This document shows positions 12,159 to 47,234 of a stretch of DNA of 64,000 nt, in pieces; position 1 is the stretch's first letter, and each line of letters opens with the position of its first letter. The position numbers and the translations under genes are program-made. The stretch is from assembly GCA_001723765.1 (NCBI GenBank), contig MAYW01000005.1:1-64000 (forward strand). The letters run 5' to 3'. This DNA is from Candidatus Scalindua rubra (lineage in GTDB: Bacteria; Planctomycetota; Brocadiia; Brocadiales; Scalinduaceae). A model generated the notes under the pieces. That model worked only from the letters and a program-made list of their open reading frames with translations. It did no database searches and was not told the origin of the DNA.

Positions 12159-12587
12159 TCACTCCAATTTGAAATAACCCACCACTGCCAGTAAATATTC
12201 ATCAATATCTTTTAGATGACTATGTACAATGTTATAAACTATGTCAAGGTTAATATCTTCATATTCATGAACCAATACATTTCTGAAACCGACCATAGAA
12301 ACCATTCTCTCAGCCAGCCCCCCTTTGATAACTCCCTTGGTCTGAAGGAGGTAGAAGATTTCATTAAGACTTCCTACAATACCCCATCCCTCATCTGAAA
12401 TGACATGGCTCCCAATATCAATGCAACCTTGAATAGCAAGCTGGAGATTACGCAATACAATGTCTTGTAAATCAAGATCATTCTTGAATGATTCTAAAAG
12501 TACATCCTTCTTATCCCTTAATCTTGACATATTGAGGCGAATATGGGAAATCTTCTTTAAGATGACTGATCTATTGACCAATAACAC
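12159..12587 (-). CDS. hepT: HEPN-domain toxin HepT
   Basis: The 142-residue HEPN (formerly DUF86) protein has the catalytic motif RX4HXY at R102, H107 and Y109 (RNVLVHEY). HEPN toxins cleave RNA; in MntA/HepT pairs the motif tyrosine is AMPylated by MntA, which silences the toxin. The start MLLVNRSVILKKI fits the family N-terminus and overlaps the upstream mntA by 17 bases. All motif residues are intact, so the toxin is probably functional. The pair stands between a NusG-like gene and a fragment of it, which suggests arrival by insertion. Confidence 0.9.
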   Translation of the reverse strand: MLLVNRSVILKKISHIRLNMSRLRDKKDVLLESFKNDLDLQDIVLRNLQLAIQGCIDIGSHVISDEGWGIVGSLNEIFYLLQTKGVIKGGLAERMVSMVGFRNVLVHEYEDINLDIVYNIVHSHLKDIDEYLLAVVGYFKLE

Positions 12588-13032
12588 TCCTCCTCATAGC
12601 TGCAATCATGCCTTTTTGCATCCGATTCTCCAGAAATTGGTAATCAAGACATTGGATAAGCCTAGTTGCCCTGAATGAGCGATGCATATTTCTGTCCCTT
12701 TCAAAGATAACTTTTCCCTCCCGCAGTATCTGAAATGCAAGAAGCTCACCAACTTCCTGCAGAAAAACCAGATCTACATCTTTCTTTATTAATCTAGAAA
12801 TATCTGTATGATATTTAACCCTTGCCTTATAGCTTTCAATATGATCTTTATATGGTGTAGTCAGTAATGCAATATCAACATCGCTGTCTTTAAGATCCCT
12901 TCCAATAACAATAGACCCGTATAGATAGGCAGCCTTGATTTCTTCTTTATCTTTAAAATACTTTTTTAGTAACTGTTTCATCCTTCTAATGAGTTCATGT
13001 TTTGAAGTTTTAACTTTGCTTGATTTAACCAT
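12571..13032 (-). CDS. mntA: MNT-domain antitoxin MntA (minimal nucleotidyltransferase)
   Basis: This 153-residue minimal nucleotidyltransferase has the complete GSX10DXD active site: G39-S40 and D51/D53 in GSIVIGRDLKDSDVD. By analogy with characterised MntA proteins it transfers AMP to the tyrosine of HepT. The C-terminal half (VDLVFLQE, LAFQILREGKVIFERD) is also typical. It is the first gene of the pair, overlapping hepT by 17 bases, as usual for this type VII toxin-antitoxin operon. Confidence 0.9.
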   Translation of the reverse strand: MVKSSKVKTSKHELIRRMKQLLKKYFKDKEEIKAAYLYGSIVIGRDLKDSDVDIALLTTPYKDHIESYKARVKYHTDISRLIKKDVDLVFLQEVGELLAFQILREGKVIFERDRNMHRSFRATRLIQCLDYQFLENRMQKGMIAAMRRSVIGQ

Positions 13033-13207
13033 CTTAAGCTTTCTACTCCCTTAAGCTTACCTTATCCAGATATTTGACTTTGTTCCTATTTCATAATGCA
13101 CATAATACCGTTTTAAAATTTCTTTTAATTTTAGTTCTTTGTAATAAAAAGATTTTCAAGCAATTTCTAAAATTTATAACAAAAAGGAAATCCTCTTTAC
13201 AATAGCT

Positions 13208-21206: not shown

Positions 21207-23601
21207 CTACTTACAACCACTCTTTGAAACTTTATAATTCTCCTCGTGTCTACTAACTAATTCATGCATCTTAGTCCTGTCCCAATTGTTGATTTGATTG
21301 TGCGCTTCACGCTTTCTTATCCCATAAAAGTTTGATGAATCGCAGAAATAACACACATCCGCTAACCTAGGAGTAACACGGTTGCATTCATTACAGATAG
21401 TAAATTCTGGCGATATGGTTAATTGTGCTGCCTGTGTATTTTCAAAAGTCTTTCGAACTAAATTCATAATGCTGGAAGCTGGTGGTCTCTCTTCACCTAC
21501 AAACGCATGTATTATTGCACCAGATTCAATCATACTATGAAATTTACTCTGTACCTCTATTCTCGTAATCATATTTACATGTGCATCCGGACGCAAATGA
21601 ACGCTATTTGTATAGTAGTACTCATCTCTCTCTATGTTACCTTTAACCAATTCCACAGCTTCTTTGTAATTTCGGACATCAATTTTGGCAAGTCTTCTAC
21701 TTGCGCTTTCAGCAGGCGATTCTTCCAGTGAAAATTTTAAATTGTGTTTTTTACCTTCTTCCTTAACCCTGAAATACATATGAGAAATAATACGTAACCC
21801 GAGTTTAAGAATGTCATCACCCTCGTGTAATTCTTTACCAGTCATATATTGCAGACATTCGTTCAGACCTATAATACCGACAATGTAAGTCGCCGCTTCC
21901 AAATCTACATACGGCCTGCCATCTTTGGCCGTTTTACCAATTTCCCACAACGGCATTTCAGGTACCGACATCAGCCTGGTAATGAACTTCTTTTTCTGGA
22001 AATGAGCCTTGACGGCGATATCTATGCCCCTATCAATCTCTTGATAAAGTTTATCAAAGTTCCCCCTGCCAGCTCGGTAAGCTGCCTGAGGAAGACTTAC
22101 AGTTACATTCTGGAATCCACAAAATCTCATGCTCTCCGGATGGTTAATCATATAATTATCTGATATAGTCGTACGCAGTCGACAACATGCTGACAAGGTT
22201 ATTTCATCCCTATCAAATACAAAATACGGCACCCCGTTTTCACTGGCAATCTGAGCCGCATACCCCAAAAGTTCATATTGTTTAGGATCTTTGTATGTAT
22301 CATGGCTTATATGCAAATCACATTTAGGAAATGCAAATACATGCCCATAACAATCACCCTCACGCCATACATCAAGCATGGCCTTTGTAAACCGCTGTGA
22401 AGCTAATTCATATTCTCCATACGGCCTACCCGTAGGTTTTCCACCCGGACCAATAGCCTGTATCTTTTTCAGATAATTTGGTATGCCTGTGTGTATGTTG
22501 AAATCCAGGAATAACGTCTGGCCCCCTCGAGAGAAAGCACTTTGTGAACCACTAAAGATTAAGTGTTGAGCTTCCTGTTTCATTTCATCATAACCCATAT
22601 TTTCTACATATGGAGCATACATTATATTTATATAGCCTATTCCTAAAGCTCCAGCATAATAAGCCTGCATTGAAGCAAGAAATGTATTTAGATGACCCGT
22701 AAGCGTTCGGGCATGTTTAGCAGGGGCAGAAGATGTGTCTAAATTTTCCAGCGACAATCCATATTTTTTCAAGTACTCAAGCGAATGAGACGAACAATAT
22801 ACCCTGGTTGGATAACCAAGGTCATGAATATGAACCATCCCGGAAGTATGTGCATCTGCAACATCTTTAGAAAAGACTTCTTGGAGAGCATATTGTTTTA
22901 AAGTATTTTCGGCAACAGCAAGGTTAATTGCTTCAGGATTATTTGATGCAATGTTGCTGTTTTCCTTATTTTTAGAGTATAAGAGTTGTTCGATATCATA
23001 CTTTGGCATGCCTAGACTAGTTTGTTTTTCAAGTTTTGCATTGTATCCTCTCTCAAAGAGTTCATTATCAACTAATTCACGAATCAGCGATGTAGATATT
23101 CTGTTTAAACCTGATGCAAAGATGCGATTCTCAACAGCATTTGCAACTTTCTGAGCAATCTCACCTGTCAAATCCGCTTCCTTCTCCAGGGCTAACGCAA
23201 TTTTTTCTTTTGTCCCAGGGAAATGATTCATCTTTAGTAACAAGATCAACCATTAATGCCGCATCGGTCGTATCATTACCTTTCCTGACCTGTTTGCTAA
23301 CGCGAAGTGATTTGCGAATTCTTCCTCTCTTTTCTCGATACAATATAAAAGCTTTTGCTGTCTTTGCATGTCCATTCTTTATCAAAATCTCTTCAACTAA
23401 ATCTTGAATATCTTCTATTCCTGGAATTTTGTCTTTAAATTTTTTTTGTAGAAAATGAGTAACAACACTTGCAAGCTCCTCTGCAATAGATATATCTTCA
23501 CCACCAACAGCTTTTGCAGCCTTGAAGATAGCATCTGCTATCTTGCTTTCATCAAAAGGCACCAATCTACCATCACGTTTTTGAACCATTTCAATCGTCA
23601 T
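21207..23601 (-). CDS. nrdD: Anaerobic ribonucleoside-triphosphate reductase, frame broken at an A6 run
   Basis: Two overlapping frames make one NrdD. The first (23601-23161) carries the N-terminal ATP-cone (VQKRDGRLVPFDESKIADAI). The second (to 21207) has the catalytic part and a four-Cys zinc site (CNEC...CYFC). At the A6 run (plus 23201-23206) dropping one A joins FPWDKRK to IALALEKEADL in the expected way. The enzyme makes dNTPs without oxygen. The C-terminus reads FYGIRKREAHNQINNWDR, where relatives have an RxxGY glycyl-radical loop, so the radical glycine seems absent. It follows nrdR closely and should be in its operon. Confidence 0.85.
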
Positions 23602-23621
23602 AGTAAAACTTCCCCTCCTTT

Positions 23622-24104
23622 TTATTCAGATTTCTTCTTTTTCGGCTTCTTAGTCGAAGACATTAAAGGTTTCAACTCATTAATAAATTCATTTATATCT
23701 TTAAACTCTCTATATACTGATGCAAATCTGACATAAGCCACCTTGTCCAAGATTTTTAGGTTCTGCATAACAAGCTCACCAATAAACTTTGTTTCAACCT
23801 CTCTTTCAAACTTGTCGTATATTATCCTTTCTATTTCAGAAACAATGTTTTCGAGTGTTTCAGTAGATACGGGTCTCTTTTCACACGCCTTGTGCAATCC
23901 TATTAATATCTTATTACGATCAAAGTTAATCCTGCTCCCATCTTTCTTTATCACCCTTACAGGACTTTCTTCAACCCTCTCGTAAGTTGTAAACCTTCTC
24001 CCACAGTTCAAACACTCGCGCCTTCTCTTTACACTAAAACCATCTGTTGATGCTCTTGAATTAATAACTCTATCATTATCAACCTTGCAAAATAAACACT
24101 GCAT
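23622..24104 (-). CDS. nrdR: Transcriptional repressor NrdR
   Basis: The zinc ribbon (CLFC, then CLNCGRRFTTYERVE) and the following ATP-cone (VIKKDGSRINFDRNKI) are complete, and the length of 160 residues is typical. NrdR senses ATP/dATP through the cone and represses ribonucleotide reductase genes. It is the first gene of nrdR-nrdD-nrdG, and two candidate NrdR boxes precede it, so autoregulation is likely. The tail is lysine-rich (KKPKKKKSE). Confidence 0.96.
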   Translation of the reverse strand: MQCLFCKVDNDRVINSRASTDGFSVKRRRECLNCGRRFTTYERVEESPVRVIKKDGSRINFDRNKILIGLHKACEKRPVSTETLENIVSEIERIIYDKFEREVETKFIGELVMQNLKILDKVAYVRFASVYREFKDINEFINELKPLMSSTKKPKKKKSE

Positions 24105-29777: not shown

Positions 29778-30358
29778 TCATCTAAAAGTTATAAGAAATG
29801 TGAGTATATTATCACGCTTCTCAAATTATGTCAAGCAAAGAACAACACCTACACATATAGCAGTTATTTTACACTGCCAAAACTTCTTTTCCCCATTCCA
29901 GAACCTTTAAGAGTTTGTCCTCATGAAAACATGTCCTCATGTAAAAAACACATAATGAGTGGTAGATAAAAGCCTCTACCCGAACTTTCCAAAGGGGATT
30001 ACGTGAGGACAAGTTTTTATAAGTTTCGCTTGAATAAAAAATACTTGTGCATATAATCATATAATACAAAAGAATTTACACTTAGCCTTTATTTAAAACG
30101 AAAATAGATTCCCGACGTGAGCTAAGCTCAGCTTTGTCGGAGTCGGGAATGACACTTTGTTACCCTTTATGTCATTCCCGCAAAGCTGAGCTTAGCTCTG
30201 TGGTTTTAGCCCTTATAGCAAGGAAACAGGGAATCTGATCCTGTCCCCATCTTCATGGGGATGACATTACTTTTGTCAGTGCCTGTCCTGAACTCGATTC
30301 AGGAACATGTTTTCATGATTCGTGGTGCCCTGAAAGGGCATGAAGGTTTGATCTGAAA
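29778..30358. repeat. Gene-free divergent region with GTCATTCCCG-family repeats
   Basis: Between the leftward M50 protease and rightward kdsD lies 580 bases of noncoding DNA. From about 30095 to 30350 it is filled with inverted units (GATTCCCGACGTGAGCTAAG, GAGTCGGGAATGACA, GTCATTCCCGCAAAGCTGAG, CCCCATCTTCATGGGG) and ends with AGGGCATGAAGGTTTGATC, as at 14540. Promoters for both directions should lie here, but I cannot place them with confidence. Confidence 0.75.
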
Positions 30359-31331
30359 ATGAAAACAAATTTAAGAGATATAGAATATGGTAAAGATGTC
30401 GTAGAGATTGAGGTAAATGCCCTTAGAAACCTTATTCACCATATTGATAACAACTTTCGGAAAGCAGTTGACTTAATCATTAAATGTAACGGAAGGATAG
30501 TCGTAACCGGGATTGGCAAAGCAGGCATAATAGGCCAAAAAATATCAGCTACATTAGCCAGTACAGGTACCCCATCTTATTGGATACATTCTTCTGAGGC
30601 AAAGCACGGTGACCTTGGAAGGGTAGTTGCAGAGGATGTGGTTTTAGCTCTCTCAAATAGTGGCGAAACTGAAGTTACTCAACTCATACCATTTTTAAAA
30701 AAAAATTGGCGCAAAGATTATTGCAATAACAGGTAATAATAAATCCAACCTGGCAAAATATAGTGACATAGTCCTTTATATAGGCAACATAGACGAAGCT
30801 TGCCCTTTAGGTCTTGCTCCCTCAGCAAGTTCCACAACCATGCTTGTATTGGGTGATGCTCTAGCATTAACAGTTTTCAAGAAAAGGAACTTAAGTAAAG
30901 AAGAATACGTCTTTTATCACCCAGGTGGAGATATCGGAAGGAATCTTCTCACTGTGGATGCAATAATGCGAAAAGATAGAGAAAATCCAGTAACAAATGA
31001 AGATACCATTGTAACAGACGCACTTAAAATTATGACAAGCACAAAAGGCAAACCTGGAGCTGTAAGTATCATTGACTTAAACAAAACACTGGCTGGCTTT
31101 TTTACAGATGGCGACCTTAGAAGACATCTTCATAAAGGCACATCTTTTCTTAAATATTCTATCAAAGATGTTATGACTAAAAAACCAAAATCCATTAAAA
31201 CTGGTTGCCTGGCATCAGAAGCATACAAGATATTACGGGAAAATAAAATAGACCAACTCCCTGTCGTAGACGATAACAACACCCCCATTGGTATAATTGA
31301 TGTACAGGACCTACTTGACGCAGGATATTAA
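30359..31331 (+). CDS. kdsD: Arabinose-5-phosphate isomerase KdsD/KpsF, frame broken at an A9 run
   Basis: The SIS domain (GRIVVTGIGKAGIIGQKI, then SNSGETEV) and two CBS domains are all present, but the frame changes at the A9 run 30697-30705. Removing one A turns FLKK-NWRKDY into FLKKIGAKIIAITGNNKSNL, which is what the family has, and leads without a stop to 31331. The enzyme makes arabinose 5-phosphate for KDO of lipopolysaccharide. kdsC follows, then an LPS-export gene. A run of nine A is a plausible site of transcriptional slippage, so the gene may still yield full-length protein. Confidence 0.87.
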
Positions 31332-32052: not shown

Positions 32053-34035
32053 ATGAAGAAAAAAAGTCTCGCTTTTTTAGGAATTGTAATTATTTGCTTT
32101 TGTTTCTTAGCTCTCTCAATCTCTGGCATGATTGACTATACCACTTACGTCAAGAGAGAAGAGAAACCCATGTTAAAGAAAATTATAGATGAAGACTCCA
32201 AAAAAAAACAGAGACTAACTCAAGAATCTAATTTGAAAGATATAACTCAGGAAATTTACGGCCTTCGTTTGCCAAACTACGATAAAAATGGAAAGGAAGT
32301 TTCAATAATTCGAGGCGCTTATACTGTCTTTCTCAAAAATAGAATCTACAGAATTTCAAAACCAGAAATCGAATTTATAGGCACTGGTAATAAAGATAAC
32401 AACCAACCAAAGAACATAATCATAACCTCAGACTTTGGAGAAATAGACAAGACGACTAATAAGGGGTTGCTTTATGAAAATGTAATAACCAGATTAGAGA
32501 AAGATTTTAAAATATATACCGATGATTTAAAATACTTACCTGATGAGAAAATAGTTAATACCGACGGTTCGGTTACAGTTAAAGGTAATAACATGAAGAT
32601 TACGGGAACTGGTTTTGAAATTAATTTATCTGATTCAAAAGCATTGATAAAAAACGACCCTGAAATGGAAATAGAAAGCGATAGAGATGGTTTGTTCTTT
32701 TTCTCCACAAATGAAACCGCTACTCCAGATCCTAAAAGTCAAACAAGCATTACAAATAGAAATATTGCGGATAATATCTTTATACGATCCAGTGGAGAAT
32801 TGGTATTCGAGAACAAAGAAAGACTGGCCGTATTTAATGAAAACGTACGCATTTCAAGAGGTAAATCCACTATTTTCGCTGATAAATTAACAGTCCCTTT
32901 CGACTCGGATATGGAAAACTTAAAGAAGATAATAGCAAGTGGAAATGTTCTGGCATCTGATGGTAATAAGAATGCAAAAGGAGAAAAATTATCGTGGGAT
33001 GGAGAAAAACAAATCGCAACGTTAGAAGATGACCCTGTAGCTGAATTCTTCGATGATAAGGTATCAATAACTGCTGCCAAAATCATGTTCTCTAAAGTTT
33101 ATGGTAGAATGGATGTTCCAGTAAGTGGACAACTAACTACTATTGTCAGCTTAAATAGCAATAAGCAAGATGAGAACAAAGAAACAGAATTAATTCTCGC
33201 TTCCCCTAAAGACCCGGCTTATGAAAGCATCACAATAACCTGGAAGGGCAGAATGACTTTTCAACAGAACATAAACCGGGCATTATTTGAAGATGATGTT
33301 GTCGTAAATAAAGAAGGAACAAAATTATATTGTGAAAAATTGGTAATAAAATTTGATGATCAAAATAGCACAATGAAGCATTTGGAAGCTACAAAGGATG
33401 TACACCTAATTGAAAAAAGAGAGGATTATTATAGAGAAGCGCGAGGAGAAAAACTTATATGGGCATCTAAAGAAAATTATACTGAATTATACGGAAACCC
33501 ACTCGCCTCAGTTAGAGATGGTGAAAGACAAATATCAGCGCCAAAAATCTCTTTCTCAGAAGATGAAAAAAAAATACTTGCAGAAGGAAAAGGGTATCTA
33601 TTAGCTAAATCTCATACAGAAAAGGAAGAAAAGGATACTGAATTCATCGACATTAACTGGAACAAAAAAATGATCTATAACGGTAAAAAAAAGACTGCAA
33701 ACTTCTATGAGATGGTTAAGGCTATTAAAGGAGACGATAAACTCGACTGTGATAGATTAGACGTACTCTTCCATGATAAAGACAAAATCAAAAAAATCAC
33801 TGCGTTAGGAAATGTTTATATTGCAAGCCCAAATTCAGAGAATACAGAAGGAGTAGGAACTTTACTTGTATGGGATTTGATGAAAGACATGGCAGTGCTT
33901 ACGGGAAATCCTCTTGCAGAATTAAGGCGTTCAGGCGCTCGAACTTTCTCTGAAAAGATATACTTTGATATAAATTCAAAAAGAGTACACTGGGAAGGAA
34001 AGCCACACTGGCAAATCTATGAAGGAGTTCAATAA
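32053..34035 (+). CDS. LPS-transport protein with LptC-like and LptA/OstA-like regions
   Basis: A single N-terminal membrane helix (SLAFLGIVIICFCFLALSIS) is followed by an LptC-type domain (TSDFGEIDKTTNKGLLYENV, then GNNMKITGTGFEI) and by at least three OstA/LptA-like beta-jellyroll stretches (TIFADKLTVPF, TKLYCEKLVIKF, KLDCDRLDVLF). In Lpt systems LptC anchors in the inner membrane and LptA forms the periplasmic bridge; here both seem fused in 660 residues. It follows kdsC by 31 bases and overlaps the next gene by 17, forming an envelope operon. Confidence 0.8.
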   Translation: MKKKSLAFLGIVIICFCFLALSISGMIDYTTYVKREEKPMLKKIIDEDSKKKQRLTQESNLKDITQEIYGLRLPNYDKNGKEVSIIRGAYTVFLKNRIYRISKPEIEFIGTGNKDNNQPKNIIITSDFGEIDKTTNKGLLYENVITRLEKDFKIYTDDLKYLPDEKIVNTDGSVTVKGNNMKITGTGFEINLSDSKALIKNDPEMEIESDRDGLFFFSTNETATPDPKSQTSITNRNIADNIFIRSSGELVFENKERLAVFNENVRISRGKSTIFADKLTVPFDSDMENLKKIIASGNVLASDGNKNAKGEKLSWDGEKQIATLEDDPVAEFFDDKVSITAAKIMFSKVYGRMDVPVSGQLTTIVSLNSNKQDENKETELILASPKDPAYESITITWKGRMTFQQNINRALFEDDVVVNKEGTKLYCEKLVIKFDDQNSTMKHLEATKDVHLIEKREDYYREARGEKLIWASKENYTELYGNPLASVRDGERQISAPKISFSEDEKKILAEGKGYLLAKSHTEKEEKDTEFIDINWNKKMIYNGKKKTANFYEMVKAIKGDDKLDCDRLDVLFHDKDKIKKITALGNVYIASPNSENTEGVGTLLVWDLMKDMAVLTGNPLAELRRSGARTFSEKIYFDINSKRVHWEGKPHWQIYEGVQ

Positions 34036-35861
34036 TAAAAAGATGCTGAATAAGTTATCTTGCAAAATTTTCTTAATTATACTAGTTTTTATAATACATT
34101 CAAGTACAGCAATCCCTGCAGAATTATCCAAAAATATAATAATTATAGCACGGCACGGCTCATTAGAAGATACCCCAGAAAATACATTTGCCGCCTTTGA
34201 AAAGGCAATAAATATAGGAGTAGGCGGTTTAGAGATAGATGTAAGAAAAACGAAAGATGACAAATTAATCTTGATGCATGATGATACGATTGACCGCACA
34301 ACCGATGGTAAGGGCTACGTAAACAAATTATTTTACGATGAGATAAAACAATACGATGCAGGCGCATGGAAAGGAGAAGAATTCGTGGGAGAAAAAGCGC
34401 CGCTTTTATCTGATGTCTTACAATTTGCCAAAGAGAAAAATATCAAAATTATTCTGAATGTTAAAGAAAACGGCATTGAGCAAAAAATATTATCTTTTAT
34501 TAGAGAATACGATATGATAAATCAAATATACTTTGGTGGAAGGTTAGATGCAATCCGTAATACAGAAATAGGCATTCAGGGAGCACAGCTAATATTCTTC
34601 CAACCAGGTGAATTAACAAACGATATAATAGAATTTGTTCACGAAAAACATAACCATGTTGGAACAAGTCTTTTTGGTACAGATAATAGAGATAAAATGG
34701 AAGAGAGAATGATTAAGGGTGTTGATGTTATTCTGACTGACTATCCAAGTGTTGCGATTGATCTCTTGCATTATAAGACAACAAATGAGCCAAAGAACAA
34801 AAAAATAAAAAATGAATTACAAATGGAAATGAACGGCAATATAGAACAAGTTAATGTCCTCATCGATACAATGATACATGGACCCCCTGACAATTCGAGA
34901 ATGGCTGCATTAATATTAAGCGCCTTACCACAAGAACTTTCTACTCACCCATTGATTGAACTTTTAACCTATAAAAAGACTCGCAAGCGTTTCAATCCTA
35001 TCAAAAAAATTATCTCAATCTTTAAAAAGGAAGAAAAAGAAATCTTAATTCCTGCAATTATAGTTAAAAGAAACGCTGCTTGGTCCTTAGGCCTTATCAA
35101 AGATAAACGTGCGGTAATACCGCTTATTAAGCAATTAGAAACTGATGATTCAGAATTGAAGAGAGAAATCACACTGGCACTCAAAAGGATTGCAGATAAG
35201 CAAACTGTCCCTATATTAAACAAGATATTGCTAAGTGAGGAAGACCCCTATGTAAGATATGATGCTGCAAGAGCTTTAGGCGAAATAAAAGATTCCCATT
35301 CTATTTATACCTTGATAACAGCGCTTAAAAATGATAACAACTGGATGGTTAAGGGAGGGTGTGCTGGTACCTTAGGGAAAAATTGGTAACAAAAAAGCCG
35401 TAGACGCGCTTAAAACCCTTCTAAATATCGATGCAGGTGAAGAAGCTTCATGGGCACGTGATAGAGCCTCATGGGCATTGGAAAAAATAGGGACAGGCGG
35501 AATAGATGCTCTTGTATCTTCACTAGGTGCTAATGGAAAAAGTACACGTAGAAGAGCTAGCTGGGCCCTTATAAAGAGCGGGGATCCTGCAGTGCCAAAA
35601 CTAATTTCAGCGCTAAGAGACGTTAATAAATTAGCTCGTAAAAGAGCTGCAATGGTACTGGGATGGATAGGAGACAAAAGAGCAATAGTCCCTCTAACAT
35701 GGGCACTTGGAGACGAAGATCCAAATGTAAGAAAAATGGCAGCCTGGGCGCTTGGTAAGATTGGAGGAACAAAAGCAAATAAGGCCCTTAAGCAAGTACT
35801 TAGTGACCAGGATGAAGATGTAGTAGAATATGCAAAAGAAGCAATACAAAGAACGAGTTAA
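34019..35861 (+). CDS. Exported glycerophosphodiester phosphodiesterase with HEAT repeats, frame broken at an A5 run
   Basis: A signal peptide (KIFLIILVFIIHSSTAIPA) leads into a GDPD domain with PENTFAAFEKA, LEIDVRKTKDD and MHDDTIDRTTDGKG. The first motif reads ARHGS, whereas the family has HRG with a catalytic histidine; the order is swapped here. From about residue 260 HEAT/PBS-lyase repeats follow (DDSELKREITLALKRI). At 35378-35382 an A5 run breaks the frame: without one A, GTLGK continues as IGNKKAVDALKTLL and on to 35861. It overlaps the LPS-transport gene by 17 bases. Confidence 0.8.
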
Positions 35862-37711: not shown

Positions 37712-39118
37712 TTATTTTGCATTTATTTCATTCTGCCAGTCTTTGACTGATTCTCTTATAATTTTACTTCCAATTTCTTGGGCAGAGGTTAATTCTGTTG
37801 CAGATTTGCTAGTCTTCTCCCATAGAGTGTTTAAGTTATCAACAAGGCTTTGATCTTCTATATAAATTTGATCTTCAGCAAAATTCATTTTCTCATGGTG
37901 ATTAAGTATGAATTCATAAAATTCGCTTAAATCACTAACGTATTTCTCTTCCAATTTTTCCATAAATTGCAAAGCAGTTCCAGAGAGCCTTTCATCCTGC
38001 TTAGATGCATAATTAAGTTTTCCCCTGTATTTCTTTAATAAGTTATCCGTTGAGTCATAATAGATCTTTCTAATATCAATGTATTTTCGCAAATTGTTTT
38101 TTAGTTGTAACACATCTTCCTTGTTTTTTAATTCAGTGAAAGTTGCAAACTCAAAAGCTCCAATATTGGATATTTTATCACTTGTGTCCATATTGAGTTG
38201 ATTGTATTCCTTCATCATATTTGACAAGATTGACTGGGTTTCGTTTTGAGGAATGTCTGGTTTTACTTCTCCAGTATCTACATCAAATCCTTTTACGATA
38301 TATTCAGCATCCTGTTTACTAACAATCGTTTCTGCTACTGCTACTAAGGCAGAAAGCTTTTCTTCAAAATAATTATCTACGTATCCTTGATTCCTCGCTT
38401 TTTCCATCATCTCTACTGCTGCTTGCTGGACTTGCTGTTGAATATCTTCAGTTAATAAACTCATTACAATCGCTATTGTTTCGGGGTCTTCTGACAAAAT
38501 TGTTGCTACAACATCTTCTTTTCTGATGGGACTTCTTTCCCTCAATATCTGCGCCATTACAGGAATGTAGTATTTCCTAACAAGTTGTTTATGCAATTCA
38601 TCTGCTTTCTCTATGGTTTCCAATGCGTTCTGATCGTTTGAAAAGGCCTTATGCATGGCCGCTATCAGGGCTTCTCTAACGAGGTCTGCTGCCTTTGCAG
38701 TCTGGTTTGCACGTCCACCGACACCTATAGAAAACAATATCAAGTCATCAATGCGTTCCCGCAACTTATTCGTCTCTTCGACTGTGATAAAAGAATCCAG
38801 AGCCTCAAAAGATTTTACTAGCTGGGCAAGCTGTTCTTCGGCCAAAAGATAATCGTTGTTATCAATTGCTCGTGCTTCGAGTAATTCTTCTTCAGAAACC
38901 GCTTGTAAATGAGCAGGAAAATAAGGATTGTTGCATCTACGAACCAAATGAGCTTCGTATGCACCCGGATTATCTGACCATTCAAAATCCGAACACATAG
39001 CGACATTTGTATCTAATGGCAACTCCTTACTAAAAGGATCCTCAATTCCCTCAAAAATCTTATAGGCTAGATCAACAGGAATAGTTGCTCCATATTTATC
39101 ACGAAAATCCTGCTTCAA
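37712..39118 (-). CDS. C-terminal part of a large ClpP-like/MORN protein (frameshifted), helical
   Basis: The 468-residue frame (first ATG at 39118) is helical and acidic and matches no family I know. The frame stays open upstream to 39232 and there encodes plausible protein (ISDKILESLDELKTSYDGD) without a start codon, overlapping the end of the next gene. It therefore seems to be the tail of that protein: one extra A in the A5 run (plus 39221-39225) would join them into about 1200 residues. An initiation within the segment cannot be excluded. Confidence 0.65.
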   Translation of the reverse strand: MKQDFRDKYGATIPVDLAYKIFEGIEDPFSKELPLDTNVAMCSDFEWSDNPGAYEAHLVRRCNNPYFPAHLQAVSEEELLEARAIDNNDYLLAEEQLAQLVKSFEALDSFITVEETNKLRERIDDLILFSIGVGGRANQTAKAADLVREALIAAMHKAFSNDQNALETIEKADELHKQLVRKYYIPVMAQILRERSPIRKEDVVATILSEDPETIAIVMSLLTEDIQQQVQQAAVEMMEKARNQGYVDNYFEEKLSALVAVAETIVSKQDAEYIVKGFDVDTGEVKPDIPQNETQSILSNMMKEYNQLNMDTSDKISNIGAFEFATFTELKNKEDVLQLKNNLRKYIDIRKIYYDSTDNLLKKYRGKLNYASKQDERLSGTALQFMEKLEEKYVSDLSEFYEFILNHHEKMNFAEDQIYIEDQSLVDNLNTLWEKTSKSATELTSAQEIGSKIIRESVKDWQNEINAK

Positions 39119-39171
39119 TTTATCAATTACAGCAAAGTATTCTTCTGGATTATCACCATCGTAAGAGGTCT

Positions 39172-41319
39172 TTAGCTCGTCAAGACTTTCCAGTATCTTG
39201 TCGCTGATATTATATCGCCATTTTTCGCTCCTTCATCTATTATTTCCTGCTTTCTTGCTTTTATCCTCGCAATTTCTTTATTTGTTGATTCTTGCATTAA
39301 CTTAAGTTGTTCTTTTGATAATTGGCCTTCTTGTTTAAACTCATCATTATGAGCAACGTCATTTATCTTTCTATCAGCTTCGGTCTGAAATTTCAAATTA
39401 CCCTGTGCATCTGTATAAGCCCATTTCCTGCTACCATCAGTTAAATAATGCCATCCACCAATCGCATTGTTATCCTTAAACTCTCCTACATATTTAGAGC
39501 CATCAGGCCAAGTATTTGTTCCATAGCCACTTTTCACGTTATCCTTCCACTCTCCTATATACGTTTCACCGTCTGCCCATACATATGTTCCTTGGCCTGT
39601 TTTCATGCCATTTTCGAACCCACCCACATACTTGTCACCATTCGAAAGAATATATGTTCCCTGGCCATTAAGATTATCATTTTTAAATTCACCTATATAT
39701 ATATCACCGTTTGCCCAAGTGTATGTTCCATTGCCATGCATTTTGCCACCCACAATATCCCCATCGTAACTGCCATCATCGGATGCACTACCATCAGTTG
39801 CGGCTTGAGCAAACATATAACGAAGCATATTAGCTGCCATTCTTTTATCCTCGGCCAATATGAGTTCAAAAAAGCTGATTTGGGCGTCACAATATCGTTT
39901 ATACTGATCGCTGTTCTGCAATTTCTCGTGACCAATGGCAATGTATAATGCATCATCTCCGAGTTGAAGGGCAATTTTCTGTATTTGAAGTTCGACCGCT
40001 TCTAAATCAACCAATGGAATTTCCTTCTCATATGCATCAGTAATTATATTACTTACCACATCATTGAATAACTCCTCCACCTCCTGTGGGAAATATTTTA
40101 AAATGTCGAGAGTCCCATATTGCTCAGGATAAAGCCATTTTAAACAAAGCAATGGATCTTTTTCTACAAGCTTTTTTAATGTGTCAATCATAATCTGAGC
40201 GAAACCAATCAACGTCTCATTACTAGACATTGGCAGTAACCGATTAGCCAATACCATAATATGATTTGCTCCAGTTTCTTGTAATTTAATTAGAGTGGAT
40301 CCATTCTTGTACTGTTCATTAATATCAGTTATGATTTGCTCAAAAACTTCTGGTTCATATTTTTGAATGGTTCTGTAAACAGGTATATCAAGAAATTCTT
40401 CTCTAACATTAATGTCTTCCATACGTTCTAATGGTGTTAAATCTGAAGGGTTAACAACTCCATGTATTACACCAGCACTCAACAGTTCATCTCTAGATGG
40501 AAACCATAGGTCTTCGCCAGATGCAGCATAAAGCTTCTCAAGGAATTCCTTCTTAATGCCTTTACGTTTGAAAATGCGCAAATCTTTTTCTTGCTCTTTT
40601 TTTAAGTTTACAAATTTATCAATATCTTCGTAGTACAGGTGGTATTGATGGAATCCCAGACTGGCTCCTGTACCCAGAAACCTGTTTGTGCCTGAAACAA
40701 ATGCCATTGTACTTGCGGAATAACATCCTTTTAAGGAATAAGTATCAAGACCATAAATTAGGATCAACTTTGAAAGCTCTCGTCCTTCATAAATTCTACC
40801 ACCAACGCAGTCTAGTATGATTCCTTTTATATCTGGGTGATCTTTCAATAGTGTGGCAACATCTTTCGAGACGCCAAACCTAAGCCCACCTTCCAAATGT
40901 ATAAGTGAGTCATTATTTCTTAGTGTAAGTGTATAAGCAGATGTCGTGTCCTTCTGGAATCCTAATTGATAAAGCGTCTTGTAAATTTTCCAAGATGAAC
41001 TTATTGATCCTAAAGATGCGATAAGACCTAGAACAACGATTGTTTGTGCAGTACGTGCCCAGAATGCTCTCCCGTTTACCGCCACATGCCTATCACAAGC
41101 TCGCCACAAACCTACTATTTGCCAAGCGAAAATAAATAATTGTATAATTACTATAATGATTGTTACACGAGCGGAAATGACTGGATGAGTGATTGGTGAA
41201 CTCTGAACAAGCCAATTATTAAGAAACAGGAGGGCAATGTTTACAAGAAAAACGTTAACCCAAAATGATACAGCAAGGGATAACTCTCCACGCCAGTGTT
41301 TAAGAATATAGTTCATCAA
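39172..41319 (-). CDS. Membrane protein with ClpP/SDH-like serine protease domain and MORN repeats
   Basis: Three membrane helices in the first 130 residues are followed by a ClpP/crotonase-fold domain: DIKGIILDCVGGRIYEG, then GCYSASTMAFVSGTNRFLG, where the Ser of SAST would be the nucleophile, and ASLGFHQYH with a candidate His. A long helical middle comes next, then five MORN repeats of the pattern GKMHGNGTYTWANGDIYIGE (about residues 535-640) and a charged helix. The combination is unusual; MORN repeats often bind membranes or other proteins. The stop at 39172 probably results from a frameshift. Confidence 0.75.
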   Translation of the reverse strand: MMNYILKHWRGELSLAVSFWVNVFLVNIALLFLNNWLVQSSPITHPVISARVTIIIVIIQLFIFAWQIVGLWRACDRHVAVNGRAFWARTAQTIVVLGLIASLGSISSSWKIYKTLYQLGFQKDTTSAYTLTLRNNDSLIHLEGGLRFGVSKDVATLLKDHPDIKGIILDCVGGRIYEGRELSKLILIYGLDTYSLKGCYSASTMAFVSGTNRFLGTGASLGFHQYHLYYEDIDKFVNLKKEQEKDLRIFKRKGIKKEFLEKLYAASGEDLWFPSRDELLSAGVIHGVVNPSDLTPLERMEDINVREEFLDIPVYRTIQKYEPEVFEQIITDINEQYKNGSTLIKLQETGANHIMVLANRLLPMSSNETLIGFAQIMIDTLKKLVEKDPLLCLKWLYPEQYGTLDILKYFPQEVEELFNDVVSNIITDAYEKEIPLVDLEAVELQIQKIALQLGDDALYIAIGHEKLQNSDQYKRYCDAQISFFELILAEDKRMAANMLRYMFAQAATDGSASDDGSYDGDIVGGKMHGNGTYTWANGDIYIGEFKNDNLNGQGTYILSNGDKYVGGFENGMKTGQGTYVWADGETYIGEWKDNVKSGYGTNTWPDGSKYVGEFKDNNAIGGWHYLTDGSRKWAYTDAQGNLKFQTEADRKINDVAHNDEFKQEGQLSKEQLKLMQESTNKEIARIKARKQEIIDEGAKNGDIISATRYWKVLTS

Positions 41320-42273: not shown

Positions 42274-42997
42274 TTATTGTTGCAAATTTTTCGCCAATTT
42301 CTTTAAAAAAGAAGCCAAGGCTAAATAACCAAGTTCTATGCCACTTCCTTCCCATTCTGTAATATGTTTTTTAATATCTCCATTGATAACCATTGCTATA
42401 TTAAGGGCTTGATTGACAGTAATCTCCTCAGATGAAAGTCGTGTTGCAATTTCCATCACTTTTTCTGAAACGCCCTTGTTAGTAAGCACTTTTCGATATC
42501 TTTCTTCATACCTGATTTTCACATAAGGCACTTCAACAATCTCTATCCCATATAGCTCCACAAAACTATCTTTGTTTTTGAGATTTGTTGAAAGATAATC
42601 TTTAAGTTTCTGGGCTCTATTATGAATCTCAATTGCTTCGCTTCCAATAGAATGGTTTGCAATAAAAGAACATACATGGCTACTTATAATACTTAACATG
42701 CCTTCATTAAGCACTGTTTTATCAATAGAAATATAAGTTGGAAGCCTATTAAGCAAGGGTTTATATTGCAAAGAGAACGTCACTGATACCTTTGGGCCTT
42801 CCTTGGAAGGAAATAGTCCATCAAAAGGAAGATGCCGAATGCGCATATCAATATTTTCATGTGTTAACTGTTCCCAAGGGACGCAAAAATGTCCACCAGG
42901 GCCATATGTTTTATGTTTCCCACTAACTAAACTAAACAATCCTTTTTGCCATATTTTTTACCTGTTCCAACATGTTCCTTTGAGATTCCTCTGCCAT
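42274..42997 (-). CDS. SPFH/band-7-like protein, frame broken at an A5 run
   Basis: The main frame (to 42274) reads GLFSLVSGKHKTYGPGGHF, a typical SPFH/prohibitin-type start, then IRHLPFDGLFPSKEGPKVSV and helical sequence. Its natural beginning is in another frame: ATG at 42997 after the strong site GGGAGGAAGG gives MAEESQRNMLEQVKNMAK and stops after 21 residues. Removing one A from the A5 run (plus 42943-42947) fuses the two as KNMAKGLFSLVSGK. SPFH proteins form membrane-associated rings. It overlaps the zinc-ribbon gene upstream. Confidence 0.65.
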
Positions 42998-43250
42998 AAC
43001 CTTCCTCCCGCTTTGTAAAAAGACGAATGTACCATGGTAGATGGGTGCATCCCATAGGACAATGTTGACCCGCTAAAGCATTCCTTCTGCAACATGGCAG
43101 TCTCTGCAATGAAAGTTCATCAACTATAGCAATCCATTCATGATCACAACTGGAGCAACGAAATGTATACATGTATGTTTGGACATATGGACTCGCTTTC
43201 CAGCCCTTGGTTTTTCTATGATATTCTCCTAGGTTTGCTTCCCAGCTCAT
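42927..43250 (-). CDS. Small zinc-ribbon protein upstream of the SPFH gene
   Basis: The 107-residue frame contains FRCSSCDHEWIAIVDEL and CCRRNALAGQHCPMGC, enough cysteines for one or two zinc sites. It starts MSWEANLGEYHRKTKGWK and has no membrane helix. Its 3' end runs over the start of the SPFH gene in another frame, so the true C-terminus is uncertain. The pair probably forms an operon. Function is unknown. Confidence 0.55.
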   Translation of the reverse strand: MSWEANLGEYHRKTKGWKASPYVQTYMYTFRCSSCDHEWIAIVDELSLQRLPCCRRNALAGQHCPMGCTHLPWYIRLFTKREEGYGRGISKEHVGTGKKYGKKDCLV

Positions 43251-44265: not shown

Positions 44266-44601
44266 TCAAATTTGAGAGTTATCCACATTTTTCTCTTTCG
44301 CCAGTTTAGTTACTTTTTCTTCCAATGATAGATTAGAAATATCAATTTTTAATTTTTCCAAATCACTATGTAGATATTTCTCTGTGGTTTTTATATTGGA
44401 ATGACCTAGAAGGTGAGAGACACTATAAACAGACACTCCAGAATTGATTATCTGACTAGCAAAACTATGTCTGGCCGCTTCGTACAACCTTACACTCCTG
44501 TCTAACCCCGCCTTCTCACGTACAACACTCCACATTCTTTGTAATCTGCTCTCAGAGTAATGTCTACCCGTTTCACCAACGAATATGTACGCCTCCGGCA
44601 A
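44266..44601 (-). pseudogene. Tyrosine integrase, C-terminal part (split)
   Basis: The frame carries the end of the catalytic domain: AARHSFASQIINSG (box II Arg), VSHLLGHSNIKTTEKYLH with the tyrosine nucleophile. The N-terminal part lies 1.1 kb upstream at 45729-46670, separated by an IS91-family remnant. Both halves together would make a complete integrase of about 425 residues. Confidence 0.85.
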
Positions 44602-44650
44602 ATTGTTTTAGTATCGGAATTTCAAAAATTTTACTATAAATATAAAATAA

Positions 44651-44695
44651 ACCACAGATTTCGCAGATTACTCAGATTTTCTTATCTGTGGAATC
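44651..44695. repeat. Short repeat (ACCACAGATTTCGCAGATTA family)
   Basis: This unit begins ACCACAGATTTCGCAGATTA and ends ATCTGTGGAAT. An inverted copy lies at 45624-45675 and a related palindrome at 45281-45351. The outer two frame the IS91 remnant. Confidence 0.75.
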
Positions 44696-44991
44696 TAAAA
44701 TATTAAGTTTGTACAAAAATACTCAGATAAATATACAATTTCATCAATCATGTTTTGTCTTTTTTCTGTTATAAATAAACTACCCCTATAAGCCTGAATG
44801 CATTCTTTAAATAAAATGCTTTTTCATTAACCAGTATCTGGTATAAGTTTAATTTGTTTTAAAGGAATTCTTTCGCTGTTACTAATTCCCAATTTCGTAA
44901 ACCAACGTTCTTCAGACTTAAAGCAAGCAAAAATCAATATCATTTCTAATGAACAATTTTCACAAACTAAAGGATCATTACCTGTATATTA

Positions 44992-45090
44992 ACCCTGTTA
45001 GATAAATATTTAAAAATTATGATAACCATTCTCAAAGGATTATGTATCATTGTCCCTTCTAAAAAGTATAAGATGCCTATCTAACAGGGT
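44992..45090. mobile_element. 99-bp miniature element with 13-bp inverted termini
   Basis: ACCCTGTTAGATA (44992-45004) and TATCTAACAGGGT (45078-45090) are perfect inverted repeats around an AT-rich core. It interrupts the IS91 transposase. I cannot define a target duplication. Confidence 0.7.
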
Positions 45091-45280
45091 AAAAATGAGG
45101 ATTGAACTTTATATTACTTCCAAATGTATGGAGTACTATGTAAATACCTGGGACACAGCCTCCAAATTCTTTTGTCCAACTCTGTATCGCCAAAGATGCT
45201 GATGTAAATAATAACTGAAACATTACTTGTCTATTGAGTAAACATATAGCTCTTAACTGCCAGGGAAGTGTAAATACCAT

Positions 45281-45351
45281 AACACAGATGACACAGATTT
45301 TAGATAGATTACACTGATTAATTCATCTTAATAATCTGTGCAATCTGTGTT
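45281..45351. repeat. 71-bp palindromic element inside the IS91 remnant
   Basis: AACACAGATGACACAGATT and AATCTGTGCAATCTGTGTT are inverted halves. The element stands exactly between transposase codons ATDK and VFTLPW, replacing about 20 codons. It belongs with the CACAGATT repeats at 44651 and 45624. Confidence 0.7.
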
Positions 45352-45623
45352 CTCATTTATCCGTTGCTATTTTCCCACACGAAGAACAAAAGCGGGATTT
45401 ACAACTATGGGGAATTAATCTAACATCTCTACATCTTGGACATTGGTATAAATGATAGCCTAATTGTGGTGTACGACACGCTAATATCTTTTTAATATTC
45501 TCATATACTGTAGGACGAATTACTCCTTTGTACCAATCACAATAAGCTAGCCAATGGATAGTAAATATTGCTTGTAATGTTGTAACACCTGTTATATACT
45601 CCATAGCTATTGATTAACTCATA

Positions 45624-45675
45624 ATTCCACAGATTTTACTATAAAAAAATCGGTGTAATCTGCGAAATCTGTGGT
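45624..45675. repeat. Short repeat (inverted copy of 44651-44695)
   Basis: On the minus strand this reads ACCACAGATTTCGCAGATTA and ends ATCTGTGGAAT. It lies between the IS91 remnant and the N-terminal integrase part. Confidence 0.75.
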
Positions 45676-45728
45676 TCCATTCCTGAAATGAATTCAGGAC
45701 AGGTCTTTTCATTAATCAACTTGCGTAG

Positions 45729-46670
45729 CTATGTTCTAAACTCAAATATCTCTTGATGGATTGGTATAATAGCCTTCTTTGACCGCTTCCCCTTCCTTTT
45801 TTGCCTATAAACAGTATCAGAAAAGGTCGCAGAGATAGTAATCAACCCATGTTCTAAATCTACGTCTTTGCATTTTAAAGCTCTAGCCTCCCCTGGCCTG
45901 CAACCTGACAACATAAGAAAGGCTATTATGGGTTTGTCTATATCGGGTACATAACTAAACACGGCTTTTTGTGTTTCCGGTGTAAGCCAAGTAGTTTTTG
46001 GAGGGGTAATCTCAATTATAGGGAAATGTGGAACTACTTTCAATAACTCCAAATCATTTTTCAGATACATTAGAAATGTTTTGAATATATCAAGGCAATT
46101 CTTTAAGGTCTTATTACTAAAATTATAATTTTCGCTGACATAAGCCTGATAATTTACAATATCCAGCTTCCGTAAATCCCTCACGTCCCTTGTGCCAAAA
46201 TAATCTTTAGCAATCCCCACATAGCGTTTATAATGTCGAATATAACTTGGTGCTATTTTATCGGCAGTTAATTTTAACTCAAGAAAACCGTCAAGCAATC
46301 TTTCTATATAAAACTTTTCCAACTCCTGCTTTATATAATTCGAGGAATCGAACGTTTTGCTTTTTATCTCATGATTAATGCGGCTTAAGAGTTCTCTGCC
46401 ACGTTGATATGAATCAAGTATTTGCCCTTGCTTATCTGAAAATAATCTTAGTCGTTGGCCTTGATGGAAGAAATCAATATAAAACCGCTGCGGTGTGATC
46501 TGATGCTCTGGACAAATAAACCCCAGCTTCTTTATCTCGGCAAACTTGCCATGACAAACCGGACATTTTCCTTTTACTCTGATAGTCCCATTCATAATCT
46601 CGCTCTCCTCGGTAAGAAGATACGAGATTGAGTCCTGAAATGTCAAGGTATTTTCAAATAAATCGTTCAT
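45729..46670 (-). pseudogene. Tyrosine integrase, N-terminal part (split)
   Basis: The frame has an N-terminal zinc-ribbon (CPVCHGKFAEIKKLGFICPEH region), an arm/core-binding domain (APSYIRHYKRYVGIAKDYFG) and the first half of the catalytic domain with the box I arginine (LSGCRPGEARALKCKDVDLE). It ends abruptly after IPIHQEIFEF, where the C-terminal part should follow. The insertion replaced the junction; the separated C-terminal half is at 44266-44601. Confidence 0.87.
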
Positions 46671-46694
46671 TATGGGGTATATGTTTTTATCTTT

Positions 46695-47165
46695 TTAACG
46701 CGCGCTCTCTCTCAGTATCTTCTCTCTCAGCTTAACTCGCTCGGCCTCGTAATCCACTCCAGTTATTTCAGACATGCTTTCCTCTAATTCTATCCTTCTT
46801 TCTTCCCTGGCTTCCTTATCGGCATCCAGCTTTTCCATTGATATGTTTTCGGTACTCTCGTTCCTGAGAAGCCGCATTTTATCAGTGCAAATCCCAGAGG
46901 CTATGGTCCTTTGATAGGCATTTAATTTATTTATGTCATCATCCGTAATTGAATCTATCATTCTCCGGCTTAGGCTTTCATATTGATCGGCCAGCACTTC
47001 CTGAATTTCTATAATCTCTGAGGCTATTATTGGATCAAGACAGGCTTTCTTGACCGTCTTCGGGTCTCTGTTAATCTTTAGCGAAATGGCATGAAAGGTT
47101 AACCCATTTGCTCGTAACAACTTAACCGTCTCAATTTCATCGAAGTTTAGTGGTGTACCGCTCAT
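46695..47165 (-). CDS. Helix-turn-helix protein, terminase-small-subunit-like
   Basis: Residues 7-36 (FDEIETVKLLRANGLTFHAI, then INRDPKTVKKA) form a helix-turn-helix. The rest is helical and charged, as in small terminase subunits or element regulators. It lies directly upstream of the integrase in the same direction. Its identity as terminase is a guess; no large subunit is present in the element. Confidence 0.6.
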   Translation of the reverse strand: MSGTPLNFDEIETVKLLRANGLTFHAISLKINRDPKTVKKACLDPIIASEIIEIQEVLADQYESLSRRMIDSITDDDINKLNAYQRTIASGICTDKMRLLRNESTENISMEKLDADKEAREERRIELEESMSEITGVDYEAERVKLREKILRESAR

Positions 47166-47234
47166 ATTTTGTCCTTAAATTTGGGTTCTTAATACAAATA
47201 ACTCCCAATATAAAAAGTATAAAAAGGGTATTTG

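Follow-up and report, generated by a model that had tools for sequence, protein, structure and literature searches.

SppA and the other S49 peptidases are membrane-anchored hydrolases of the ClpP/crotonase fold that use a Ser/Lys pair. A second group of ClpP-like proteins, secreted and encoded by Ruegeria, Tritonibacter, Sphingopyxis and phage Atu_ph08, is presumably COG3904. MORN proteins, as described in PMC7725318, dimerize in the solved eukaryotic cases, and MORN repeats are regarded there as dimer or oligomer modules. Here we analyze a locus in which a putative membrane-anchored ClpP-like domain and MORN repeats precede a frame junction. It lies on the minus strand of a 64,000-nucleotide stretch of Candidatus Scalindua rubra DNA (the window), and the source genome is a 5.19-Mb assembly of 443 contigs, 88% complete with 5.4% contamination. 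According to our analysis, the two open frames at this locus most likely form one gene, and we consider it rather likely that they specify a single composite protein of the envelope, about 1,200 residues long, whose frame is split by the loss of one base inside a short module and not by recoding.

Open frames and the frame junction

The two overlapping open frames reported in the first-pass annotation are present on the minus strand, where they share 39172-39232 and stand in a relative -1 register.

39172..41316, minus strand: ORF1, 714 aa from ATG; membrane helices, ClpP-like domain, helical domain, MORN repeats and first half of the junction module
37712..39232, minus strand: ORF2, open from stop to stop; second half of the junction module and helical C-terminus

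Both frames are real coding sequence. In their own frame only, their codon usage follows that of the window's clear genes, with in-frame scores of 0.25 and 0.31 bits per codon against about 0 in the other frames. At the local composition, an open run of 506 codons would arise by chance with a probability of about 1e-16. ORF1 can start with TTG at 41319 or, better, with the ATG at 41316, which has AAAGGA upstream, and it stops at 39172. Inspection of ORF2 for starts found no ATG before codon 79 and none with a spaced Shine-Dalgarno sequence; the first candidates are TTG at 39118 without a Shine-Dalgarno sequence, TTG at 39022 abutting AAGGAG, and ATG at 38998, all three of which would cut or skip a conserved module that spans the junction.

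39038..39336, minus strand: module of about 100 aa spanning the junction, homologous to single-frame proteins
39202..39207, minus strand: one-base length difference from both module relatives in DNA alignments (frame junction)

When 59 relatives were searched with each of the two halves, two module relatives besides the window were found (L034 and L036). One is a 128-aa protein encoded on another contig of the same genome (C268), which matches the ORF1 end at 59% and the ORF2 start at 81%; the other is a 251-aa protein of Candidatus Scalindua MAG OFTM180 (G015), a genome of the same family, which matches the ORF2 start at 69% and, by alignment, also the ORF1 end. A two-row profile of the module matched 155 stretches in genome contigs, of which only the OFTM180 locus was confirmed, and a single one of 294 phylum genomes, the window's own. 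In both module relatives (2/2) the junction stretch is one open frame, and neither encodes two separate proteins here. That two genes are present, with ORF2 translated alone, is improbable in our view: the C-terminal domain of ORF2 does occur without ClpP or MORN parts in Legionella and Paraburkholderia proteins, but ORF2 opens inside the module begun by ORF1, and a second gene with a proper start was rejected as no plausible ORF2 start was found. Since no complete relative occurs among the sequences searched, the claim of a single gene rests on the module, the codon usage and the missing second start.

The first-pass annotation had joined the frames by a -1 shift at GCGAAAAATGG (GCG-AAA-AAT-GG), with AAGGAG beside it. 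Both elements lie where it put them (39218-39228 and 39228-39233, respectively), yet the DNA alignments to the two module relatives move the break 11-16 nt further downstream, with the window one base short at 39203/39202 or 39207/39206. At the protein level, the BLOSUM score of the joined sequence against the own-genome paralogue peaks at 377 for switches at 39203-39211, and that against the G015 protein at 312 for switches at 39197-39199, whereas joins at 39218-39226 reach only 351-359 and 280-288, respectively. The ORF1 tail 'TRYWKVLTS' and the ORF2 stretch 'RSEKWRYNIS' have no counterpart in either module relative, and the junction is not inside a homopolymer.

A programmed -1 frameshift, by which the ribosome would pass into the second frame in a fixed fraction of rounds and a ClpP-MORN protein would be made both in a short form and in a long form that includes the C-terminal domain, has in its favor the direction required, which is -1, and the AAGGAG just upstream of GCGAAAAATGG. 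Against it, the module relatives are single-frame and lack AAGGAG at the corresponding place in the DNA alignment, and a join at GCGAAAAATGG fits them clearly worse than one further downstream. No X-XXY-YYZ heptamer is available, since neither G-AAA-AAT nor 39202-39207 qualifies, and the RNA downstream of the junction is not more stable than shuffled sequences (z = -0.61). AAGGAG itself is weak evidence because it is common in the window, with 48 copies against 35.1 (sd 5.75) in shuffles. On the frames of the relatives, the DNA alignment, the AAGGAG frequency and the RNA fold, programmed frameshifting at GCGAAAAATGG was rejected, and we deem it highly improbable; the recoding interpretation was wrong both in place and in kind. 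The alternative offered at the same time, another indel between frames that belong together, is instead supported by the one-frame module relatives and the one-base deficit. We interpret the junction as the place where a single gene is short of one base, on account of the single-frame relatives, the displaced break, the unconserved and common AAGGAG, and the ordinary RNA; as judged from sequence comparison, the frame was most likely lost by one missing base, through either a real mutation or an assembly error, with no recoding site.

If the base was really lost, the locus may be a decaying pseudogene that yields the truncated ORF1 product at most. We lean against this reading but give it some weight: the composite is unique and near a stretch with integrase-like genes, and the break lies outside a homopolymer and is therefore less typical of sequencing error, but about 1,200 codons run without further stops or breaks, the codon bias is intact and the candidate catalytic Ser and His are kept.

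Other frame-broken loci in the window

The kdsD/kpsF gene (arabinose-5-phosphate isomerase; 30344-31328, plus strand) is split by one base too many at an A9 tract (~30697-30709), and a search of the genome for kdsD returned no other full-length match. Either an assembly error or slippage at A tracts accounts for this split; since a housekeeping-type gene is also frame-broken, indels of some origin occur in the window. One base too many is likewise found in a GDPD/HEAT gene (33974-35858, plus strand), split at AAAAATTGG (~35378-35386), the same motif as at the kdsD break, of which the window holds 6 copies against 2.9 expected. The direction of the ORF1/ORF2 junction had been called opposite to that of the A-tract cases, which proved right for the two checked, kdsD and GDPD/HEAT, as here one base is missing. 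Because of this opposite direction and the lack of a homopolymer, the junction need not share the cause of the A-tract breaks.

Three further loci and a group of genes were observed in the window. At the anaerobic ribonucleotide reductase locus (21210-23625, minus strand), possibly another broken gene, the ORFs for the ATP cone and for NrdD lie in different frames and overlap near AAAGAAAAAATTG (~23164-23252). Two overlapping frames at 42277-43250 (minus strand), with a junction at 42927-42957, stand in the same -1 register as ORF1 and ORF2 and have no match outside their own genome among 59 genomes. An MntA/HepT type VII toxin-antitoxin pair lies at 12162-13050 (minus strand), and integrase-like genes lie near the composite gene at 44266-47174.

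Membrane region and ClpP-like domain

The N-terminal part of ORF1 comprises the following features.

40966..41277, minus strand: membrane region by hydropathy; of three hydrophobic helices, two are clear and one is weaker
40450..40911, minus strand: ClpP-like domain, from profile searches via relatives
40717..40719, minus strand: codon of Ser201, candidate nucleophile, aligned to the ClpP catalytic Ser (34/34 relatives)
40648..40650, minus strand: codon of His224, aligned to the ClpP catalytic His (33/34 relatives)

Of the three membrane helices claimed earlier, two are clear (residues 15-38 and 41-65), while the third (~90-112) remains under the hydropathy threshold. Charges counted by eye around the hydrophobic segments are positive at the N-terminus and in the second loop, so that, provided the weak third helix exists, the ClpP-like domain would lie on the extracytoplasmic side. 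Several relatives have signal-like N-termini, in line with this location, and hydrophobic N-termini are also present in three proteobacterial relatives and in G346.

The window's ClpP-like domain gave no PF00574 match up to an E value of 5 and matched no Pfam protease family and no NCBIfam model; the ClpP-like call holds through its relatives. Two weak relatives of the domain were found in 392 phylum genomes, and the G352 relative hits PF00574 at 8.1e-8, above the cut-off. The family profile retrieved ClpP structures from the PDB (best E value, 2.3e-4), nearly all of the matches listed being Clp subunits, and hhalign against the ClpPs of the organism's own order gave an E value of 4.3e-5 with a probability of only 69%. 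Plasmid and phage relatives comprise Ruegeria, Sphingopyxis and Tritonibacter proteins and a 'putative periplasmic protein' of phage Atu_ph08. A six-sequence profile matched 155 of the 392 phylum genomes, the window's own included; its strongest matches are open frames of 178-458 aa, mostly of families f31 and f74, and many of the weaker ones are probably ordinary ClpP. The evidence for the predicted fold consists entirely of profile comparisons, and structure predictions made without alignments for residues 1-504 and for the C-terminal part of ORF2 had pLDDT values of 41 and 43. A single-sequence scan of genome contigs with ORF1 residues 1-504 gave 18 pattern matches, none of which was confirmed; PHROGs yielded nothing below an E value of 0.1, and NCBIfam and PADLOC hold no families for ORF1 or ORF2.

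Conservation was assessed in 34 aligned relatives: the 29 planctomycete loci with the best scores, G346, and four plasmid/phage hits out of six. The window's own locus, weaker planctomycete loci, H4 and a duplicate phage record were left out. Ser201 is conserved in 34, His224 in 33, Gly173 in 33, Gly174 in 34 and Cys199 in 33, counts that are favored by the fact that the relatives were found with profiles already holding the Ser and the His. Ser201 (CYSAST) and His224 (GFHQ) are in register with the catalytic pair of the own-genome ClpP. The catalytic Ser had been sought in the motif SAST, of which the first Ser is supported and the second is not, the latter being Ala, Cys or Gly in all 34 relatives. 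For a Ser-His-Asp arrangement, the alignment gives no firm third residue: the position of the ClpP catalytic Asp (Asp171) is not acidic in the window or in most relatives. Candidate third acids are Asp170 (29/34) and the position of Glu258 (acidic in 32/34). In the Sphingopyxis relative, Asp stands in place of the His.

This replacement and the absence of a conserved acid where ClpP has its Asp both fit a pseudo-enzyme scaffold, in which a non-catalytic ClpP-like domain would only organize membrane complexes, but the near-invariant Ser and His together with the Gly-Gly motif argue against it, and we consider such a scaffold unlikely, if worth bearing in mind. The composite is probably a membrane-anchored Ser/His hydrolase.

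Domains downstream of the ClpP-like domain

The remainder of the composite consists of the following parts.

39808..40410, minus strand: middle helical domain, which by homology searches exists elsewhere as a separate membrane-anchored protein
39496..39768, minus strand: four MORN repeats with a 69-nt period, over the Pfam cut-off (best, 9.4e-8)
39427..39492, minus strand: fifth, degenerate MORN repeat (YVGEFKDNNAIGGWHYL..), read from the sequence and not called by Pfam
38324..39001, minus strand: C-terminal helical domain (WSxxPG..E..L....NNPxF), common to Legionella and Paraburkholderia plasmid proteins
37715..38323, minus strand: predicted helical tail from low-confidence structure prediction, relatives not found

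Residues 304-504, which form the middle domain, match stand-alone membrane-anchored proteins of two genomes of the same family (L017 and L018) with 25% identity and E values of 4e-19 and 8e-21. The domain also occurs in a 323-aa protein of G043 (L098), in a search in which two of 314 genomes matched, the window's own included. The neighbors of L017 and L018 are biotin-ligase-like and rhodanese-like genes, named by eye from their sequences. By eye, the middle domain also seemed related to the C-terminal part of the Sphingopyxis protein, but comparison gave this no support.

Five MORN repeats had been announced; four score over the Pfam gathering threshold, and the degenerate fifth is seen by reading only. 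They are the only MORN matches in the whole genome. Among 59 genomes searched, MORN repeats account for the matches in 14 of the 16 matching genomes besides the window's own, and the remaining two (G004 and G006) match the middle domain only. A viral scan with ORF1 found one locus, matching in the MORN part only (L096:3554-4063, IMG/VR), which encodes a 169-aa protein almost entirely made of MORN repeats.

ORF2 residues ~82-296 are matched by two Paraburkholderia plasmid proteins and one Legionella plasmid protein (E values from 5e-10 to 8e-9), and among 343 phylum genomes the C-terminal domain turned up solely in that of the window, which together suggests lateral transfer. One of the two Paraburkholderia proteins (L101:3392-4699) carries the annotation 'tryptophan leader peptide', which is clearly wrong for a protein of 435 aa. 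Scans of viral sequences gave no relatives for the ClpP-like profile, for ORF2 or for the C-terminal domain, and the middle and C-terminal domain profiles had chance-level matches only in the PDB.

Proposed function

The composite would thus be arranged as membrane helices, ClpP-fold Ser/His hydrolase, helical domain, MORN array, short helical module and C-terminal helical domain. We propose that the membrane helices anchor the ClpP-like domain, probably to the outer face of the cytoplasmic membrane, and that the MORN array and the helices drive oligomer formation. Given that solved eukaryotic MORN proteins dimerize (PMC7725318), the MORN array probably oligomerizes the composite. The Ser/His pair may then cleave peptide bonds in proteins of the membrane or the envelope independently of any Clp ATPase, in a mode closer to that of SppA than to that of ClpXP. 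As Clp ATPases would be out of reach of an extracytoplasmic domain, the likeliest function is that of a Ser/His hydrolase that acts close to the membrane and needs no ATP.

No sequence covered by our same-genome, family, phylum, plasmid and viral searches has all parts of this architecture, and none of the titles listed by the literature searches describes it. The best reading is that of an unusual architecture, a new combination of known kinds of parts. More speculatively, it may be a new envelope protease assembly, a membrane ClpP-fold Ser/His hydrolase on its own oligomerizing MORN rod with helical domains, built in an anammox-family bacterium from separately existing parts of which the last came perhaps from Proteobacteria; this we put forward tentatively.

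The locus illustrates how a short module spanning the junction can decide the case of a suspected recoding site. A membrane ClpP-like domain with MORN repeats would widen the range of roles that the ClpP fold has apart from Clp machines. If active, it would be a membrane protease that works without ATP, from a lineage on which little work has been done. In addition, two uncharacterized helical domains are outlined, one common to proteins of the anammox order and the other to proteobacterial plasmid proteins.

Comparison with known systems

The stand-alone membrane proteins (L017, L018 and the 323-aa L098 of G043) are homologous to residues 304-504 but lack the ClpP, MORN and C-terminal parts. 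With MORN proteins (PF02493) the composite shares four repeats over the Pfam cut-off with a 23-residue period, although here the array makes up one segment of a ClpP-like membrane protein. The likeness to ClpP (PF00574) extends to the Gly-Gly motif, the Ser in (C)xSA, the His in (F/I)HQ and the order of these elements, and includes the PF00574 match of the G352 relative. The window protein differs from ClpP in being predicted to be membrane anchored and fused to MORN and helical domains, and in having no Pfam match of its own and no aligned catalytic Asp. The secreted ClpP-like group shows 27-30% identity, C-x-S-A/S, mostly GFH, and W-F/Y-P near the end in three of four members; these proteins, however, are about 216-401 aa long and lack MORN repeats, and most of them begin with a signal-like segment. 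In SppA and the S49 peptidases the catalytic pair differs from the Ser/His candidate proposed here, and the window protein has no S49 Pfam match; as membrane-anchored hydrolases of the ClpP/crotonase fold, they nevertheless provide the working analogy for how this composite might act.
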